A DNA stretch of 64,000 nt from Streptomyces violaceoruber (GTDB taxonomy: Bacteria > Actinomycetota > Actinomycetes > Streptomycetales > Streptomycetaceae), in assembly GCF_033406955.1 (NCBI RefSeq), contig NZ_CP137734.1, positions 7,998,001-8,062,000 on the forward strand, in the 5' to 3' direction. The first letter of the stretch is position 1. Every line of letters starts with the position of its first letter. Positions 28,858-38,732 of the stretch are shown here, piece by piece. Below the pieces are notes generated by a model. The model had not been told where the DNA came from. It did no database searches and saw only the letters and a list, made by a program, of their open reading frames with translations. Made by a program: the position numbers and the translations under genes.

Positions 28858-29811
28858 ATGTTGAAGTACGTCCTGGACCTCGTGGATCTGCTCGACGATC
28901 CCGACGCCGACGGCAAGCGCGTCGCCGCCCACCTCGACGCGGTGGCGGGCCCCGAGGGCTCCGGCGCCGAGGTCACCACCGTCACCGGCGAGCGCGGCTC
29001 GACGGACTTCGTGCTCGTACGGATACCGGGCCGGGCCGGCCGTACCCGGGGCGGTTCCGCGCGCACGCTCGGCGTGGTGGGGCGGCTCGGCGGCGTCGGG
29101 GCGCGCCCGGAGGCCGTCGGCCTGGTCTCCGACGCGGACGGCGCGGTCGCGGCGCTCGCCACCGCCGCCAAGCTGCTCGACATGCGGCGCCGGGGCGACG
29201 TGCTCGACGGCGACGTGATCGTGGCCACGCACATCTGCCCGAACGCCCCGACCGCACCGCACGACCCGGTGCCGTTCATGGACTCGCCCGTCGACATCGC
29301 GACCATGAACCGGCACGAGGTCACCGGCGAGATGGAGGCCGTGCTCTCCGTCGACACCACCAAGGGCAACCGCATCATCAACCACAAGGGGCTCGCCCTG
29401 TCGCCCACCGTCAAGGAGGGCTGGGTGCTCAGGGTGAGCGAGCGGCTCGGCGAGCTGCTGGCCGTGGTGACCGGTGAGCCCTTGGTCACGTACCCCGTGA
29501 CCACCCAGGACATCACCCCGTACGGTAACGGTGTACACCACATCAATTCGATCCTGCAGCCCGCCACGGCGACGGCCGCACCGGTGGTCGGACTCGCGAT
29601 CACCTCCGCGGCGGCGGTGCCCGGCTGCCAGACGGGTGCCAGCCACGAGACCGACATCGCGGCCGCCGCCCGGTTCGCCGTCGAGACCGCCAAGGCCTAC
29701 GGCGGCGGACAGCTCGACTTCCACGACGACCAGGAGTTCGACGCCCTCGTGTCCCGCTACGGCCCGCTGACCCGGCTGCAGACCCTCGGCCGCGAACCCG
29801 GGGGGTCGTGA
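28858..29811 (+). CDS. DUF1177 domain protein
   Basis: A 317-residue protein that matches DUF1177 over its full length. It has no signal peptide or membrane segment. Stretches that look functional are VATHICPNAPTAPHDPVPFMDSPVD with possible metal or catalytic His/Asp residues, LSVDTTKGNRIINHKG, and GNGVHHINSILQPATATAAPVVGLAITSAAAVPGCQTG. The family has no established function that I know. Being co-transcribed with a permease and an M20 peptidase, and next to peptidase E, it is likely a cytoplasmic enzyme acting on the same imported compound. Its stop overlaps the permease start. Confidence 0.8.
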   Translation: MLKYVLDLVDLLDDPDADGKRVAAHLDAVAGPEGSGAEVTTVTGERGSTDFVLVRIPGRAGRTRGGSARTLGVVGRLGGVGARPEAVGLVSDADGAVAALATAAKLLDMRRRGDVLDGDVIVATHICPNAPTAPHDPVPFMDSPVDIATMNRHEVTGEMEAVLSVDTTKGNRIINHKGLALSPTVKEGWVLRVSERLGELLAVVTGEPLVTYPVTTQDITPYGNGVHHINSILQPATATAAPVVGLAITSAAAVPGCQTGASHETDIAAAARFAVETAKAYGGGQLDFHDDQEFDALVSRYGPLTRLQTLGREPGGS

Positions 29812-31214
29812 TCATGGCCATGCACAAGAACCCCGCCGGCGGGGCCGCCGCCGCGGAAGCGGCCACGGGAGCCGTGGGCAGCGACGACTACGCCCTCTCC
29901 CGCGTCCCGCGCGACAAGCGGCTCGGCTTCTGGACCATGCTGCTGCAGTGGCTCGCGCAGTCCGGCTCCATCTCGCAGTTCACCCTCGGCGCCACCATCG
30001 GCGTCGGCATGACCTTCGGCGACGCCTTCCTCGCGTTCACCCTCGGCGCGGTGATCCTCGAAGTCGTGATCTTCGCGATCGGCCTCGCGGGCATGCGCGA
30101 GGGGCTCGCCACCCCGCTGCTCACCCGCTGGGCGGGCTTCGGCCGCAACGGCTCCGCGCTGGTCAGCCTGGTCATCTCGGTCAGCCTCGTCGGCTGGTTC
30201 GGGGTGCAGAACACGATCTTCGGCGACAGCGTGTCCGCGCTCGTCGGCGGTCCCTCCTGGCTGTGGTGCACGGCCGCCGGTGTCGCCATCACGGTGCTGG
30301 TCATCTTCGGCTTCAAGTACATGGCCGTCTTCGCGAAGATCGTCACGCCGCTGTTCTTCGCCATGGTCGCCTGGTCGGTCACCGACGCGCTGAGCGACCA
30401 CTCGTTCTCCGAACTGATCCACTCCCCGGCGCCCGGCGAGACCATCCCGCTCGCCGTCGCCGCGACCGCCATCGCGGGCGGCTTCATGACCGGCGCGATC
30501 GTCTCCCCGGAGATGACCCGGTACAACCGCAAGGGCAGCCACGTCTTCCTGCAGAGCGCCTCGTCGATGATCCTCTCCGAGTACATCGTCGGCCTGACCG
30601 GTGTCCTGCTCGGCCACCTGGTCGGCAGCGGCCAGGTCTCCCAGATCGTGCTCTCCACCTCCGGCGTCTTCGGCGTGCTCGTCGTCCTGATGTCCACCGC
30701 GAAGATCAACGACTGGAACCTGTACGGCTCCTCGCTCGGCGTCGTCAACTTCTTCCAGGTCGTCTTCGGCAAGCGCGTGCACCGGGGCGCGGTCACCATC
30801 GTCCTCGGCATCGCGGGCACCCTGCTCTCCGCCGTCGGCATCATGACCCACTTCACCGACTTCCTGTCCGTGCTGGGCGTCGCCATCCCGCCGGTGGGCG
30901 GCATCATCGTCGCCGAGTACTGGGTGGTGCGCCGCATGCGGGCACCCCTGGACGCCACCCGCGACGCGGAGACCCTGCCGGCCACCTCGCCGACCTGGGT
31001 GCCCATGTCCCTGGTCATCTGGGCGACCGCCTTCTGCGTCGGCAAGTTCTACGACGGCGGCATCCCCGCCCTGAACTCCCTGCTGACCGCCTTCGTCCTC
31101 TACTGCGTCCTCGGCCTCGCCGGCTGGATCAGGACATACGGCACCACCGCCCTGGACGACACCGACGAACCCACCCCGGCCGCCACCGGCACGGCCACCG
31201 TAGGAGCACCGTGA
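29808..31214 (+). CDS. NCS1/cytosine-permease-like transporter
   Basis: A 468-residue transporter with about 12 membrane helices. The N-terminal LSRVPRDKRLGFWTMLLQWLAQSGSISQFTLGA and the motif GGFMTGAIVSPEMTRYNRKG are typical of the nucleobase:cation symporter-1 family. Members import cytosine, purines, hydantoins or thiamine; here the neighbours are peptidases, so a hydantoin-like or N-acyl-amino-acid substrate is possible. I favour the GTG at 29808, which overlaps the DUF1177 stop (GTGA); the ATG at 29814 is an alternative. Confidence 0.88.
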   Translation: MIMAMHKNPAGGAAAAEAATGAVGSDDYALSRVPRDKRLGFWTMLLQWLAQSGSISQFTLGATIGVGMTFGDAFLAFTLGAVILEVVIFAIGLAGMREGLATPLLTRWAGFGRNGSALVSLVISVSLVGWFGVQNTIFGDSVSALVGGPSWLWCTAAGVAITVLVIFGFKYMAVFAKIVTPLFFAMVAWSVTDALSDHSFSELIHSPAPGETIPLAVAATAIAGGFMTGAIVSPEMTRYNRKGSHVFLQSASSMILSEYIVGLTGVLLGHLVGSGQVSQIVLSTSGVFGVLVVLMSTAKINDWNLYGSSLGVVNFFQVVFGKRVHRGAVTIVLGIAGTLLSAVGIMTHFTDFLSVLGVAIPPVGGIIVAEYWVVRRMRAPLDATRDAETLPATSPTWVPMSLVIWATAFCVGKFYDGGIPALNSLLTAFVLYCVLGLAGWIRTYGTTALDDTDEPTPAATGTATVGAP

Positions 31215-32644: not shown

Positions 32645-32809
32645 ATGGCACGCAGCACCGCACGCCCGGTCGTCAAGCTGAAGTCGACCGCCGGCACCGG
32701 CGTCACCTACGTCACCCGCAAGAACCGCCTCAACGACCCCGACCGGCTCGTCCTGCGCAAGTACGACCCGGTGGCGGGAGAGCACGTGCCGTTCCGCGAG
32801 GAACGCTGA
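32645..32809 (+). CDS. rpmG: zinc-independent ribosomal protein L33 (C- paralogue)
   Basis: A 54-residue L33 homologue: [20 protein letters not shown] and [19 protein letters not shown]. The zinc-ribbon CxxC pairs are absent, and YDPVAGEH stands where cysteines would be, so this is the C- form. In bacteria such paralogues replace the zinc-binding versions under zinc starvation, usually under the repressor Zur. GGAAGGAG lies just upstream of the ATG. I looked for a Zur box in the 105-base leader and saw none that was convincing. It pairs with the C- L36 gene 49 bases downstream. Confidence 0.92.
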
Positions 32810-32858
32810 ACGGCACGTCGAGACGTGCCGAGGAGAGCCGAGAAGTGAGGAGGCAGTC

Positions 32859-32981
32859 GTGAAGGTCCGCAACTCCCTGCGCGCCCTCAAGGCCAGGCCC
32901 GGCGCCCAGGTGGTGCGCCGCCGGGGCGTGACGTACGTGATCAACAAGAAGGACCCGCGCTTCAAGGCCCGCCAGGGCTGA
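32859..32981 (+). CDS. rpmJ: zinc-independent ribosomal protein L36 (C- paralogue)
   Basis: A 40-residue L36 homologue: [19 protein letters not shown] then [21 protein letters not shown]. The usual Cys3-His zinc set is missing. It starts at a GTG with GAGGAGG upstream. With L33 it forms a two-gene unit that should free zinc for other uses by replacing zinc-bearing ribosomal proteins. A terminator follows at 32997. Confidence 0.92.
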
Positions 32982-33476: not shown

Positions 33477-34550
33477 ATGACCGAGCAGCCGCTCGACCGT
33501 GCCGCCCGGATCGAGCACCGGTTCAACGCGCGCTTCGCCGAGTACTTCGACACGCTGGGCACGGCGCTGGACGCCCCGGCCTTCAGCCGGTTCACCCCCG
33601 ACTGCGTCGGGCTGCTGCGCGACCTGTCGCTGCGCGGCGGCAAGCGGATGCGGGTCGTGCTGCTGCACGAGGCGGCGCGCCTGGTGACCGCCGAGCCGGT
33701 GGACGGGCTGGACGCCGCCGCGCTGAGCATCGAACTGCTGCAGACCCACGGCCTGGTGCACGACGACCTCATCGACGACAGCGCCACCCGCCGGGGCGGC
33801 CCCACCACCTACTACGCCTACCGGGAGCGGTTCCCCGGGCGTCCGCGGGCGGCCCTCGGCCTCACCGTGCTCGCGGGCGACCTCGCCCTCGCCCTCTCCC
33901 TGCGCGTACTGCTGGACGCCGCGCTGCCCGTCGCGGTGCGTCATGCCATGGTCGAGGTCCAGACCCGGGCGGCGACCGACACCTTCGTGGGCCAGATCAC
34001 CGACCTGGAACGGGACTTCACCGCCGCGGTCCCGGACGCGGAGATGCTGCACGACGTCGCCGACCACAAGACCGCCCGCTACTCGGTCCTCGCACCGATG
34101 CGCCTGGGCCTCCTGGCGGCGGGCGCCGAACCGGGCGCCCACGAGGACGAGCTGCGCCGGTACGCGCGGCTGGTCGGCATCTGCGGGCAGATGCGCGACG
34201 ACTGGCTGGACCTGTTCGGCGACGAGGGGACCACGGGCAAGCCGACGGGCGGCGACATCCGCGAGGGCAGGCACACGTACACCGTCGTCCGCCTGCTGTC
34301 CGCCGTGAGCGGCTCCGAGCGGGACTTCGTCGACAGGGCCCTGGGCGATCCGGCCTGCACGCCGGAGACCATTGCCGAGATCCGTGCGATCGGCGAGCGC
34401 GCCGGCGTCGCCGACCGGATGCGTGCCGACATGCGGCAGTACGCCGAGCGGGCCCGGCTGGTGGCTCAGGGCTGGCGTCCGCGGTGGCGCGAGGACGCCG
34501 TCGCCTTCTTCGAGCTGCTGCCGCGGTGGAGCGTCGAACGCTCCGCCTGA
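33477..34550 (+). CDS. polyprenyl diphosphate synthase 1
   Basis: A 357-residue trans-isoprenyl diphosphate synthase. The first Asp-rich motif is VHDDLIDD (D96, D97, D100) followed by RRGGPTT, and the second is RDDWLDLFGD (D241, D242, D245); both bind the Mg-diphosphate of the substrates. LRGGKRMR is the homoallyl-substrate binding loop. The enzyme joins isopentenyl units to an allylic primer in the cytoplasm. CAGGAGG precedes the ATG. The chain length cannot be told from the sequence. It is followed by a small unknown gene, a second synthase and an oxygenase-like gene in the same direction. Confidence 0.92.
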   Translation: MTEQPLDRAARIEHRFNARFAEYFDTLGTALDAPAFSRFTPDCVGLLRDLSLRGGKRMRVVLLHEAARLVTAEPVDGLDAAALSIELLQTHGLVHDDLIDDSATRRGGPTTYYAYRERFPGRPRAALGLTVLAGDLALALSLRVLLDAALPVAVRHAMVEVQTRAATDTFVGQITDLERDFTAAVPDAEMLHDVADHKTARYSVLAPMRLGLLAAGAEPGAHEDELRRYARLVGICGQMRDDWLDLFGDEGTTGKPTGGDIREGRHTYTVVRLLSAVSGSERDFVDRALGDPACTPETIAEIRAIGERAGVADRMRADMRQYAERARLVAQGWRPRWREDAVAFFELLPRWSVERSA

Positions 34551-34676
34551 CACCTGTTCCCCACATCGCTCAAAGGGGTATTCGGGATCTTCCGCCCCGT
34601 TCGTCCGGTCATGCTCTGACCGGGCGCGCAGTGGACCGGGCGCGTCCGTGACCACGTGAGCGACTGGGGCGGAAGA

Positions 34677-34961
34677 ATGACGCATTCGAGACGACAGGGA
34701 CCGGGCGGGGACGACCGGGCGCTGCTGCTGGTCGCCGGGTTCGCCGACCTGGCGGTGAGCACGATCGGCTCGGCGGTGGGCGGGCTGCGCGGGCTCCTGG
34801 GCCGCTCGGACACCACCGACCTGGTACGGGAGGCGGAGCAGGACCTCCAGGCCCGGGGCAGGCTGGCCCTGGACCGGTGCGCTCATGTGCCGCCCGCCCA
34901 CCTGGAGGTTCTCGCCCAGCAGGTGGAGGCCCGCCGGGCAGCCGAAGACGGCGATGTCTGA
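34677..34961 (+). CDS. small protein between two polyprenyl synthases
   Basis: A 94-residue protein I do not recognise. Residues about 15-45 (ALLLVAGFADLAVSTIGSAVGGLRGLLG) are hydrophobic but interrupted by Gly and Asp, suggesting an amphipathic or membrane-touching helix. The rest is a charged helix (VREAEQDLQARGRLALDRC and HLEVLAQQVEARRAAED) that could form a coiled coil. I start at the ATG with GGCGGAAGA upstream; a GTG at 34656 is an alternative. It overlaps the second synthase gene by eight bases, so it is part of that operon and may anchor or pair with the synthase. Confidence 0.65.
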   Translation: MTHSRRQGPGGDDRALLLVAGFADLAVSTIGSAVGGLRGLLGRSDTTDLVREAEQDLQARGRLALDRCAHVPPAHLEVLAQQVEARRAAEDGDV

Positions 34962-36012
34962 CCGCTGGGACCAGACGGGCCTCAAAACCCGCGTCGACGG
35001 GGTCCTGCGGAGCTTCCTGGACGAGGAGGCCGCCCACCTGGCGGCGGTCGACGCGGCCCTCGCGCCCGTGGCCGACCAGCTGCGGAAGGCGGCCGGACAC
35101 GGCAAACGGCTGCGGGCGGCCTTCTGCTACTGGGGCTGGCGGGCGGCCGGACAGCCCGAGAGCGACGCGCTCGTACGGGCGGCGGCCTCCATGGAACTGG
35201 TGCACGCCGCCGCGGTCGTCCACGACGACCTCATCGACGACAGCCGCCTGCGCCACGGCCTGCCCACCGCCCACGTCGCCCTGGAAGCCGTACTCGCCCG
35301 GGACGGCCGCCCCGACGCCCGCACGGCGGCGCGGTCCCTGGCCATGCTGGTGGGCGATCAGCTGATGGTCCTCGCCGGCCTCCTGTTCACCACCAGCGGT
35401 CTGCCGGCCGCCTATCTCGCCCGCGCCCGCGACCTGTGGGTCGTGCTCGCCCGTGAACTCGTCGCCGGCGAGTGCCTGGAGATCCTGCACACCGGTGGAC
35501 CCCCGGACACCGGGACCTCCCTGAAGGTCGTCCGCTACAAGACCGCCAAGTACACCGTCGAGCACCCCCTGCTCATCGGCGGCCTGCTGGCCGGCGCCGC
35601 CCCCGCGCTGCGGGACACCTACCGGGCCTACGCACTGCCGCTCGGGGAGGCCTTCCAGCTGCGCGACGACCTGCTCGGCCTGTTCGGGGACCCGGAACGG
35701 ACCGGGAAGGCGAGTCTGGACGACCTGCGCGCCCACCGGCCCACCGCACTGCTGGCCGAGACCTGGAAGGCCGCCGACGCGTCCCAACGGCAGTGGCTGC
35801 GCCGCCTGCTGGGCCGCGACGACCTGGACGCGACCCACCTGCACGACGTGCGCCGGCTCATGCGGGAGCTGAACGCGCCGCAACGGGTCGAGCAGATGAT
35901 CGCCGACCGTGTGGAGCGGGCCACCCGGGCCCTGGACGGCGCCGGGACACCACCGCACGCGCGCCGGGCCCTGCGCGAACTCGCCCAGCAGGCCACCGAC
36001 CGCACGCACTGA
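34954..36012 (+). CDS. polyprenyl diphosphate synthase 2
   Basis: A 352-residue isoprenyl diphosphate synthase. The first Asp-rich motif is VVHDDLIDD (D91, D92, D95), and the second is QLRDDLLGLFGDPE, the DDxxG form common in actinobacterial geranylgeranyl-type synthases. GHGKRLR is the homoallylic loop. The residue pair after the first motif is RHG where most have RRG. It overlaps the small gene before it and is followed at 13 bases by the DUF2236 gene. Two synthases in one operon suggest a heteromeric enzyme or sequential chain building. Confidence 0.9.
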   Translation: MSDRWDQTGLKTRVDGVLRSFLDEEAAHLAAVDAALAPVADQLRKAAGHGKRLRAAFCYWGWRAAGQPESDALVRAAASMELVHAAAVVHDDLIDDSRLRHGLPTAHVALEAVLARDGRPDARTAARSLAMLVGDQLMVLAGLLFTTSGLPAAYLARARDLWVVLARELVAGECLEILHTGGPPDTGTSLKVVRYKTAKYTVEHPLLIGGLLAGAAPALRDTYRAYALPLGEAFQLRDDLLGLFGDPERTGKASLDDLRAHRPTALLAETWKAADASQRQWLRRLLGRDDLDATHLHDVRRLMRELNAPQRVEQMIADRVERATRALDGAGTPPHARRALRELAQQATDRTH

Positions 36013-36025
36013 CGAGGAGACCGCG

Positions 36026-37186
36026 ATGCCCCACACCGAGAAGTCGATGGACGCCCTGCGCCGCAGCGGTGACGAACTGGCCGACGCGGTCGTCGCCACC
36101 CTCTTCGAGCGCGGCGAGGTCGGCACGTTCAACGCACTGATGCGCTACGTCTCCACCACCGGCCAGGACCTCCCGGACGGCCTCCCCGGCGTCGCCCGGG
36201 AGTACCTGCGGGTGACCGGCACCCCGCCCGACTGGGTGGACTGGGCCGAGATGGAGAGGGCCCGCCTGTTCTTCATCGACAACAACGTGCACATCTCCAC
36301 CGCGCTGTCGTTCGCGTCGATGCCCGCCTGCTACCTGGTCCCGCACGTGGCCCGGTTGCTGTCGGCCACCCACGGCCTGAACTATCCCTCCAAACGCATG
36401 GCCGAGACCGGCCAGTTCACCGTCTACCTCATGCGGCCCGACGCCTTCGAGTCCGGCGGACGCTTCGTCCCGGCCGCCCAGAAGGTACGTCTGCTGCACG
36501 CCGCCATCCGCCACCACCTGAAGCGGGAGGACCGCTGGGACACGGACACCCTCGGCGTCCCCATCTGCCAGGAGGACATGATCGGCGGGCAGATGTTCTT
36601 CTCCCTGCTGGTCCTGGACAGCCTGCACCGACTCGGCATCCACATGTCCGCCGAGGGCGCGGACGCCTACTACTACGCCTGGCGCGTCGTCGGCGCCATG
36701 CTCGGCGTCGACCAGGCGGCCGTCCCCGCCACGCTCGACGAGGCACGCCGGTTCCTCGACCTGTACATGCTGCGTCACATGGGCCCCTCCGAGGAGGGCG
36801 CCCACCTGACGAGGCAACTGATCGACCTCTACGAGGAAGTCGTCCCCGGCACCCTCTTCGACCCGGTCGTCTCCGCGTTGATCCGCTACCTCGTCGGCGA
36901 CACGTGCGCCGACTGGCTGGACGTGCCCCGCACCACCTGGGACACCCTGGTCAAGGCCGCCCCGCACCTGCTCGGCGTCCTGGAGACGATTGAGGACCGC
37001 TCTCCGCTGGGCGCGTGGGCCCTGGACCGGCTCGGCCACCTCACCACGGCACTCGAACTGTCCTCCCTCACCCGCGGACGCGTCATGCACTACGCCATCC
37101 CCGAGCAGCTGAGGAAGGAGTACGGCGTCTCCGGCGCCGCCGCCCGCACCCGCCGCTGGACCCCGCCGCCCCCGACCGTCTCCTGA
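36026..37186 (+). CDS. DUF2236 / latex-clearing-protein-like heme oxygenase
   Basis: A 386-residue protein of the MpaB/rubber-oxygenase (DUF2236) family. R124, T128 and H158 reproduce the spacing of the R164-T168-H198 triad of Lcp from Streptomyces sp. K30, where the His binds heme b. The Lcp lysine that is the second heme ligand in the closed state falls at E127 here. Lcp cleaves cis-1,4-polyisoprene and MpaB cleaves a farnesyl chain. Unlike Lcp, there is no Tat or Sec signal, so it should act in the cytoplasm. ACGAGGAG precedes the ATG. Co-transcription with two prenyl synthases implies a prenyl-derived substrate. Confidence 0.82.
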   Translation: MPHTEKSMDALRRSGDELADAVVATLFERGEVGTFNALMRYVSTTGQDLPDGLPGVAREYLRVTGTPPDWVDWAEMERARLFFIDNNVHISTALSFASMPACYLVPHVARLLSATHGLNYPSKRMAETGQFTVYLMRPDAFESGGRFVPAAQKVRLLHAAIRHHLKREDRWDTDTLGVPICQEDMIGGQMFFSLLVLDSLHRLGIHMSAEGADAYYYAWRVVGAMLGVDQAAVPATLDEARRFLDLYMLRHMGPSEEGAHLTRQLIDLYEEVVPGTLFDPVVSALIRYLVGDTCADWLDVPRTTWDTLVKAAPHLLGVLETIEDRSPLGAWALDRLGHLTTALELSSLTRGRVMHYAIPEQLRKEYGVSGAAARTRRWTPPPPTVS

Positions 37187-37298: not shown

Positions 37299-38732
37299 AT
37301 GTCGAGGACGTACCTGGAGCTGTCGCAGGACGACGGGAGCGCGCACAAGTTCTACGAAGTCACCGTCCAGGGACAGGTCGTGACGGTGCGCTACGGCCGG
37401 ATCGGCGCGGCAGGACAGACCCAGACGTCGACCTTCCCCACCGCGCAGAAGGCCGAGGCGGCGGCCGCCAAGAAGATAGGCGAGAAGGTGCGCAAGGGCT
37501 ACGAGGCCGCCGTGCAGGGACAGCGCGCGCCCCGCGCGGTCAGCCGCCGGCAGGTGGCCTCCGCACCGTCCACCGCCCGCGCGGTCGCACCGGTCCTGTG
37601 GCGGTTCCGCACCGGCTCCGCGGCCTTCGGCATCCACATCGACGAGGACCGGTGCTGGGTGGGCAACCAGGCGGGCGACGTCTACACCCTCGCCCACGGC
37701 GGCGAGGTCCTCGCCCGCTACCAGCTGCCGGACGGCGTCAAGTGCCTGGTCGCCGACGACTTCTGGATCTACGCCGGCTGCGACGACGGCCGGGTCTACG
37801 ACCTGTCGTCCAAACTGCCGTTTGCCGCCTACGACATCGCGGCCGACGTGGACATCTTCTGGCTCGACATCCACGAGGGCGTGCTGAACGTCGCGGACCG
37901 CGCCGGACGGCTCACCGTGATCGACCACGAGGACGAACACCAGTGGTCCCGCGGCGGACGCGGTGAGCACGCGTGGATGGTGCGCGCCGACGACCGGGCC
38001 GTCTACCACGGGCACACCCGCGGCGTGACCGCCCACTCCCCGGACGGCGGCGTCGAGTTGTGGCACACGCCCACCCAGGGAGCCGTGCTCTTCGGCTGGC
38101 AGGAGGACGACGCGGTCTACGCGGGAACGGCGCGGCACACGGTCCAGCGGCTGTCCAAGGCCACCGGTGGCATCGAGGCGACGTACCACTGCGACAGCCC
38201 GGTGTACTCGTGCGCCACTTCTCCCGGCGGCCGGTTCGTCTTCGCCGGCGACTCCGCGTCCTCGGTGTACTGCTTCGACCGGGATGGCACCCGGCTGTGG
38301 AAGCTGGGCACGGGCGGCGGCTCCGCCCTGTCCATGCAGTACCGCGACGAGCGGCTGTTCCTCGTCACCACCGACGGCTCCCTGGTGTGCGTGGACGCGA
38401 GCGAGGCGGCGGTCACGGCGGCGCAGCAGGGCTCGGTGCCCGTCGTCCGGGACGTGAAGCTCGCGGCCACCCTGCCGACGTACGCGCCCGCCACCGCCGC
38501 CACCGCCGTGACGACCGTGACCGTGGCGCCCGCGGGCTCCGTCGTGGTCGAGTGCGTCCAGGAGAACGGCCGTACCCGGATCCATGTGGTGACGGAAGGG
38601 TACGACCGATCGTGGAACGTCCAGTTCCCGAGGGCGATCCGGGAGCCGGGCGCGCGCTACGTGGTCGATGCGCTGCACGCCGCGTCGGGCGGCTTCTACC
38701 GGGTGCGCGGTGACATCAGGCGACTGCGGTGA
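37299..38732 (+). CDS. WGR domain fused to a beta-propeller-like repeat protein
   Basis: A 477-residue cytoplasmic protein. Residues 1-75 are a WGR domain (YEVTVQGQVVTVRYGRIGAAGQ, with YGRIG as the core), a fold that binds DNA ends in PARP enzymes and occurs in MolR proteins. After a linker, residues about 95-430 contain seven or so blade-like repeats such as CWVGNQAGDVYTL, IYAGCDDGRVYDL, VYAGTARHTVQRL and RFVFAGDSASSVYCF, resembling PQQ- or WD40-type propellers. No catalytic domain is visible. DNA-break sensing linked to a protein-binding propeller is a guess. Confidence 0.78.
   Translation: MSRTYLELSQDDGSAHKFYEVTVQGQVVTVRYGRIGAAGQTQTSTFPTAQKAEAAAAKKIGEKVRKGYEAAVQGQRAPRAVSRRQVASAPSTARAVAPVLWRFRTGSAAFGIHIDEDRCWVGNQAGDVYTLAHGGEVLARYQLPDGVKCLVADDFWIYAGCDDGRVYDLSSKLPFAAYDIAADVDIFWLDIHEGVLNVADRAGRLTVIDHEDEHQWSRGGRGEHAWMVRADDRAVYHGHTRGVTAHSPDGGVELWHTPTQGAVLFGWQEDDAVYAGTARHTVQRLSKATGGIEATYHCDSPVYSCATSPGGRFVFAGDSASSVYCFDRDGTRLWKLGTGGGSALSMQYRDERLFLVTTDGSLVCVDASEAAVTAAQQGSVPVVRDVKLAATLPTYAPATAATAVTTVTVAPAGSVVVECVQENGRTRIHVVTEGYDRSWNVQFPRAIREPGARYVVDALHAASGGFYRVRGDIRRLR

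Follow-up and report, generated by a model that had tools for sequence, protein, structure and literature searches.

Some prenyl synthases work as two-component systems, such as HexA/HexB and HepS/HepT, while prenyl chains are in turn substrates of the MpaB/Lcp superfamily of oxygenases, all of whose reactions known to us are cleavages of C=C bonds. According to the available portion of PMC12724181, the superfamily cleaves polyisoprene (Lcp), the farnesyl side chain (MpaB) and butadiene rubber (Nro1), the substrate of MpaB being a farnesylated aromatic compound and Nro1 being a membrane-bound enzyme. For LcpK30, the accessible part of PMC6311187 gives His198 as the proximal and Lys167 as the distal heme ligand and reports that Arg164 and His198 are essential and Thr168 nearly so, these residues ligating or positioning the heme; Glu148 is held, from mutants, to be the base of Lcp (PMC5522427, partial text). 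Here we describe a locus in a window of 64,000 nucleotides from Streptomyces violaceoruber (host genome of 8.63 Mb in a single contig), where three adjacent genes form a conserved cassette, small-S2-OXY, encoding a small helical protein (small), a putative short-chain E-isoprenyl diphosphate synthase (S2) and a predicted cytoplasmic heme oxygenase of the DUF2236 family (OXY). We tentatively propose that this apparently mobile cassette is a cytoplasmic prenyl oxidation pathway, while the polyprenyl synthase gene upstream of it, S1, is a neighbour and not a member (Table 1).

A conserved three-gene cassette

The distribution of the genes was examined in 150 genomes of the window's genus, where an OXY orthologue was accepted at E <= 1e-159 and an orthologue of small at a profile E <= 1e-23, whereas S2 orthologues were assigned by their position beside OXY. 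OXY orthologues are present in 49 of the 150 genomes, small occurs in exactly the same 49, and an S2 orthologue stands beside OXY in each of them, two of the 49 S2 genes (G119 and G032) being matched only partly. With looser limits, any OXY match at 1e-20 is found in 68 genomes, the non-orthologues being paralogues of about 30% identity plus one fragment, and any match to small at 1e-3 in 52.

The second sample comprised the best 80 of 314 OXY relatives, thus the closest ones, each taken with flanks of up to 10 kb (8 of the 80 with less than 10 kb upstream); the titles of these named loci are Streptomyces, plus one "[Kitasatospora] papulosa". Small and S2 lie directly upstream of OXY, in the same order and on the same strand, in 79 of the 80. 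Furthermore, in 75 of 78 loci the genes small and S2 share 8 or 11 bases, an arrangement suggestive of coupled translation. Outside the genus, 8 of 394 genomes of the class carry an OXY orthologue, 69 to 81% identical, with both partners at all eight loci, and at the 29 orthologue loci drawn from the genome samples tblastn recovered S2 every time and small at all but one, G042, where a profile found it. The flanks, by contrast, vary: besides the three cassette genes, no gene family occurs in more than 7 of the 80 named loci, reverse-strand open reading frames (ORFs) over the cassette being excluded; the genes of the flanks came from a crude codon-composition script, and clusters 3, 5 and 8, whose genes run on the opposite strand across or next to the cassette, were treated as artefacts.

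The conserved unit is the three genes small-S2-OXY, not four. In the sequence-only reading of the window, four ORFs on the plus strand, spanning 3.7 kb, had been joined into one system, and the ORF reading bears out their order, their strand, the 8 bases by which S2 starts inside small and the 13 bases that separate the end of S2 from the start of OXY. The expectation that all four are conserved together holds for small, S2 and OXY, which share the same 49 of 150 genomes, and fails for S1; likewise, the gene-neighbourhood check suggested there finds DUF2236 recurring beside PF00348 (79 of 80 loci), with one synthase in place of two. All three genes are constrained, OXY most strongly: against five relatives the ratio of nonsynonymous to synonymous substitution rates is 0.16-0.19 for OXY, 0.30-0.44 for S2 and 0.31-0.47 for small.

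Some loci depart from this pattern. The sole named locus without small and S2, L139 (9700-10020), carries just upstream a duplicated stretch that includes an N, and this exception is probably an assembly fault. In G051 only the last 83 residues of OXY are matched (G051:C1:6924421-6924669, 77% identical), perhaps the trace of a decayed cassette; this fragment was left out of the counts, as were weak partial matches to the profile of small in G038, G051 and G141. The sets of 110, 108 and 94 rows used below mix two genome collections and contain some strains twice (e.g., L052 and L103), so that their rows are not all independent.

OXY and the rubber oxygenases

OXY matches PF09995 (MPAB_Lcp_cat) with 65.4 bits against a cut-off of 23, and its sole solved relatives by sequence are the rubber oxygenase entries 5o1l and 5o1m, the former with E 4.8e-34 over residues 16-322. 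With LcpK30 (5o1l) it shares the DUF2236 catalytic domain and the equivalents of Arg164, Thr168 and His198, namely Arg124, Thr128 and His158, which are kept in 110 of 110 rows. The Arg-x3-Thr-x29-His spacing and the glutamate (Glu127) at the place of Lcp Lys167, both read earlier from the window alone, stand as stated when OXY is aligned with Lcp. However, the equivalent of Lys167 is found in none of the 110 rows (Glu in 98, Asn in 7, Ala in 5) and that of Glu148 in none either (Val in 103), whereas all five residues occur in 7 of 7 rows of the Lcp-like outgroup. Moreover, the cassette rows share another 25 polar or aromatic residues, each fixed at 98% or more, that do not occur in the 8 Lcp rows; R377 is excluded from this number because of gaps there in the Lcp rows.

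In the tree, 18 rows of cassette OXY stand apart from 8 Lcp rows, each group with 100/100 support, and 4 rows remain ungrouped; three paralogue rows of the window's own genome, probably read in the wrong frame, were left out. To judge from alignment and tree, the OXY proteins are a clade of their own within the rubber-oxygenase superfamily, and their distal site differs. Since Arg, Thr and His are kept while Glu148 and Lys167 are gone, OXY resembles a superfamily heme protein whose distal side has been rebuilt, and because Glu148, which the sequence-only reading did not mention, is missing too, rubber-type chemistry cannot be assumed for it. The candidate identity of OXY as a rubber-degrading Lcp is rejected on the two missing residues and the separate clade.

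The surroundings of OXY are also distinct. Different from Lcp, it is linked to a prenyl synthase, and different from both MpaB and Nro1, it combines a prenyl synthase of its own with Glu, Asn or Ala on the distal side. It belongs to the same MpaB/Lcp superfamily, in which oxidative cleavage of C=C bonds is known; two plasmid-borne OXY orthologues carry the NCBI label "oxygenase MpaB family protein". Lcp-like loci show a neighbour pair in 5 of 7 cases by clustering, which in L085, the only one checked, consists of a molybdopterin protein and a 2Fe-2S protein, and this pair is not recurrent at the 80 cassette loci under the crude gene calling. As for location, a hydrophobic N terminus over the limit occurs in 0 of 109 OXY orthologues. 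The measure is crude: of 7 Lcp-like rows, in which the starts were probably set too late, it flags just one.

S2 and its small partner

S2 matches PF00348 with 132.4 bits (cut-off 27), and the nearest solved chain is 3lk5, deposited as geranylgeranyl pyrophosphate synthase (E 3.8e-48), followed by 8f8f, a farnesyl diphosphate (FPP) synthase (E 7.6e-42). The likeness to these actinobacterial geranylgeranyl diphosphate (GGPP)/FPP synthases extends over a near-full-length alignment with the same motifs and with small residues before the first Asp-rich motif. In particular, the Asp residues of both motifs, KT and FQ are present in 108 of 108 rows, the first motif being DDxxD and the second DDxxG, like 3lk5, throughout. 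The GKRxR motif has its Lys in 107 and its Arg in all 108 rows, a His stands seven residues ahead of the first motif throughout (108/108), and Ala occupies positions -4 and -5 in every row (108/108), which, by the usual chain-length rules, would fit a product above C15.

Apart from two exchanges, the motif residues are complete in 107 to 108 of the 108 rows. The last Lys is replaced by Arg in 98 rows, and the second Arg of the RRG motif is replaced by His in 101, the window's S2 included, while Arg is retained in 7, L075-L077 among them. In characterised synthases this second Arg contacts isopentenyl diphosphate (IPP). RHG in place of RRG and the fixed partner genes thus distinguish S2 from the actinobacterial GGPP/FPP synthases. 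S2 probably functions as a short-chain synthase whose acceptor site is specialised.

The small protein has no match in Pfam or NCBIfam. Its model contains three helices (residues 11-40, 47-69 and 73-92; mean predicted local distance difference test [pLDDT] 70, predicted template modelling score 0.36), and in 74 of 79 sequences, at residues 16-34 in the window, the best 19-residue hydropathy exceeds 1.6, a value typical of membrane segments. A profile search of the PDB returned one doubtful chain, 8vd6 ("CAP REPEAT", E 1.3e-6), with no single stretch passing, and the best Foldseek hit of the model has E 1.4. The arrangement recalls the two-component synthases, in that a gene for a small helical protein lies directly upstream of the catalytic gene and overlaps it; however, neither by sequence nor by fold does small match a known small subunit. 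Its identity as a known prenyl-synthase subunit was rejected on this ground, the missing match being weak evidence because of the low confidence of the model. The simplest reading is that small would be a membrane anchor or a regulatory subunit of S2. In public annotation (L202:4538-4822 and L203:4615-4899) the same gene is called "polyprenyl synthetase", apparently a transferred name, which nothing in the present analysis backs.

A conserved element upstream of small

Upstream of small lies a conserved element, which in the window reads TCGCTCAAAGGGGTAT. Of 94 upstream regions from the genus, 85 have a pattern of this type against 1.5 expected, these being the same sequences from which the pattern was derived, and in 59 of these 85 regions a -10-like hexamer follows exactly 44 bases past the element start; another form of the pattern, likewise counted in the sequences it was derived from, is present in 49 of 108 regions. 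The pattern occurs in 0 of 6 regions of a divergent clade within the genus (L063-L069) and in 0 of 8 regions from other genera. A strict 17-base form, TCACYCGWTSGTGAGTT, is found once in each of 19 of the 150 genomes, in 17 of them just upstream of small. The strict form is also seen in the cassette-less G088 and G138 (L200:6935-6951 and L201:5952-5968), before the gene for a small protein with a signal-like N terminus. On its left side the element is similar to the BldM group I site TCACcCgnncGgGTGA, as given in the accessible part of PMC4125116. BldM may be the regulator, but the two spacings are not alike and the strict 17-mer is found just once per genome.

At its end the element reads GGGTAT (34576-34581), the counterpart of the SigB-type -10 of promoter SCO0566p, whose sequence around GGGTAT is nearly the same. 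According to the available text of PMC8346170, this promoter was isolated as SigB dependent in a two-plasmid system, it heads SCO0566-0563 (a putative membrane protein, a polyprenyl synthase and two hypothetical proteins), and it went undetected in vivo during osmotic stress. SigB may be a regulator of the cassette, but literal GGGTA[TCA] was found upstream of small in only 8 of 80 regions, and in 0 of 79 control stretches of S2. By mapping of promoter sequence and gene order, SCO0566, SCO0565 and SCO0564 would be the small, S2 and OXY genes of Streptomyces coelicolor, and the presence of the cassette in this model strain would make it directly testable.

Proposed function and alternative readings

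The observed cassette, gene overlap, conserved active-site residues, upstream element and constraint are the basis on which we infer a small-S2 complex, a chain length, a heme, a substrate, a reaction and a product. The small protein, presumably co-translated with S2, would probably bind or anchor the synthase, and from IPP and allylic diphosphates S2 would build a short E-prenyl diphosphate of C15-C20, most likely GGPP. OXY, as a putative b-type heme dioxygenase of the MpaB/Lcp superfamily, would use O2 in the cytoplasm to attack a C=C bond of the chain, supplied as diphosphate or alcohol, probably by cleavage or else by another oxidation. The expected product would be an aldehyde or ketone apo-isoprenoid, with no need for a dedicated cyclase or exporter. 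We hold this pathway, the likeliest of the readings considered, to be a real possibility without calling it probable. From the earlier proposal of an operon that makes and oxidises a prenyl chain, it retains a prenyl synthase joined to a DUF2236 protein with heme-site residues and drops the second synthase. A more far-reaching form is doubtful: in it, a membrane-bound complex of small and S2 hands a linear chain to an OXY of a new type, with a distal Glu and no Glu148, and the apo-isoprenoid serves in development or stress without any cyclase.

Several results weigh against the proposed pathway. Glu148 and Lys167 are absent from every OXY row, so that cleavage may be replaced by another oxidation, and the AlphaFold model of OXY is poor (mean pLDDT 48). 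With His for the second Arg of RRG, the acceptor of S2 may not be IPP; small matches no known prenyl-synthase subunit by profile or by the fold of its weak model; and the distant OXY relatives L078-L081, 32 to 39% identical, have neither partner in the stretches read. The same absence of Glu148 and Lys167 from 110 of 110 rows (Glu, Asn and Ala replacing Lys), together with the 25 fixed residues not seen in Lcp, favours an alternative in which OXY, as a heme protein, leaves the chain of the S2 product uncut and alters it by hydroxylation, epoxidation or isomerisation, or else senses O2, Glu127 on a rebuilt distal side replacing the Lcp machinery. This is unlikely but deserves attention; the reactions of the superfamily that we know of are all C=C cleavages, and t-anethole oxygenase, a relative with a distal Arg, reportedly still cleaves. 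It is also possible to hypothesize, with less probability, that S2 is not an ordinary elongating synthase and joins an allylic diphosphate to another acceptor or cyclises it, OXY tailoring the product. The His of the RRG site (101 of 108 rows; Arg in 7, including L075-L077) would suit such a role, whereas the GKRxR residues (Lys 107/108, Arg 108/108), the Asp residues of both motifs (108/108) and the invariant His seven residues before the first motif all speak for ordinary elongation. Finally, the cassette could serve another isoprenoid pathway of the host, for instance with S2 raising GGPP and OXY cleaving carotenoids. A CrtI-family match over the cut-off is present in 29 of the 49 cassette genomes against 24.2 expected, but with P 0.066 the association is weak at most, the remaining 20 cassette genomes have no such match, and at most 7 of 80 loci share any other gene family next to the cassette. 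Dependence on carotenoids was rejected on the weak association, and we regard the wider link to a host pathway as improbable.

The reading from which the analysis started, in which S1, small, S2 and OXY are one operon and two synthases build a chain that is then cleaved, is by now very improbable. All four genes do lie on one strand within 3.7 kb, and S1 adjoins the cassette in 5 of the 80 named loci and in G118 and G274. However, S1 is absent from the fetched flank in the other 75 (the shorter upstream stretches of 8 loci included in the 80), and the conserved element sits between S1 and small. S1 occurs in 25 of the 150 genomes, and the 11 it shares with the cassette, against 8.2 expected, are no more than chance. 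In the cassette-less G092, moreover, S1 lies between relatives of the two genes that also enclose it in the window (29808-31214 and terC). The claim of two synthases in the system is thus not supported and the four-gene operon rejected, S1 not being conserved with the other three genes: S1 is a neighbour in one clade. From its independent distribution and the matching flanks in G092, S1 looks like a resident of the locus and the cassette like a guest. In 16 stretches around S1 the surroundings mostly differ, with shared neighbours in L185/L192/L193 and in L198/L199; the crude gene-calling script missed S1 itself in 2 of the 16. In three genomes (G053, G067 and G122) S1 adjoins an S2-like paralogue.

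Apparent mobility of the cassette

OXY orthologues were found on five large Streptomyces plasmids of 0.5-1.6 Mb, and the full cassette is present on both of the plasmids whose annotation was read (two of five). Furthermore, the OXY of G502, a genome of another family, groups in the tree among those of the window's genus, with support of 89/90, just under the star assigned by the tool. The small-S2-OXY cassette thus apparently moves horizontally. SCO0567, numbered directly after these genes in S. coelicolor, is on the list of DasR-bound genes under "Transposases and DNA topology" in the accessible part of PMC4398421, which would fit a border of the mobile cassette there, with its counterpart in the window at 34550-34677.

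Novelty and possible significance

Neither the small-S2-OXY cassette nor its function was described in the literature searched, from which subscription papers were mostly missing; to this extent the system is undescribed, as the sequence-only reading had supposed. The DUF2236 papers covered, including the available parts of PMC6311187, PMC5522427 and PMC9108482, describe no such cassette, and within the same literature the combination of DUF2236, polyprenyl and Streptomyces led only to a rubber review. SCO0563-0568 turn up in work on sigma factors (PMC8346170) and on DasR binding (PMC4398421), as far as the accessible parts of both papers go.

If the more far-reaching form of the pathway is correct, the released apo-isoprenoid could be a volatile, a signal or a pigment precursor, and the pathway would be, to our knowledge, the first in bacteria that builds and cleaves a linear terpene. 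A terpenoid activity common in the heavily mined genus Streptomyces (cassette in 49 of 150 genomes) may have escaped notice because no cyclase flags it. The cassette also gives a probable source of the physiological substrate for one clade of the oxygenase superfamily and a previously unknown helical partner of a prenyl synthase.

Other features of the window

The features of the locus are collected in Table 1. The genome has six PF00348 matches, S1 and S2 included, and four PF09995 matches. None of its four matches to PF19086, the one terpene cyclase family scanned, lies in the window, in agreement with the earlier remark that no terpene cyclase is nearby.

Table 1. Positions of the cassette, its upstream signals and adjacent genes within the window
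Feature	Position	Strand	Description
S1	33477..34550	+	Polyprenyl synthase, 357 amino acids (aa), PF00348 E 2e-44; cassette neighbour only, non-member
Upstream element	34566..34581	+	TCGCTCAAAGGGGTAT; pattern conserved upstream of small
-10-like hexamer	34610..34615	+	CATGCT; 44 bases past element start
small	34677..34961	+	Small helical protein with one hydrophobic stretch, 94 aa; first gene of the cassette
S2	34954..36012	+	Putative E-isoprenyl diphosphate synthase, short-chain, GGPP/FPP synthase-like, 352 aa, PF00348 E 2e-38
OXY	36026..37186	+	DUF2236/MPAB_Lcp_cat protein, predicted cytoplasmic heme oxygenase, 386 aa, PF09995
Two small genes	32645-32981		Upstream of S1
WGR plus beta-propeller gene	37299-38732		After OXY

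The gene for the WGR plus beta-propeller protein was found in just 3 of the 80 named loci. The two small genes upstream of S1, which we take to encode L33- and L36-type ribosomal proteins, served as synteny markers only.

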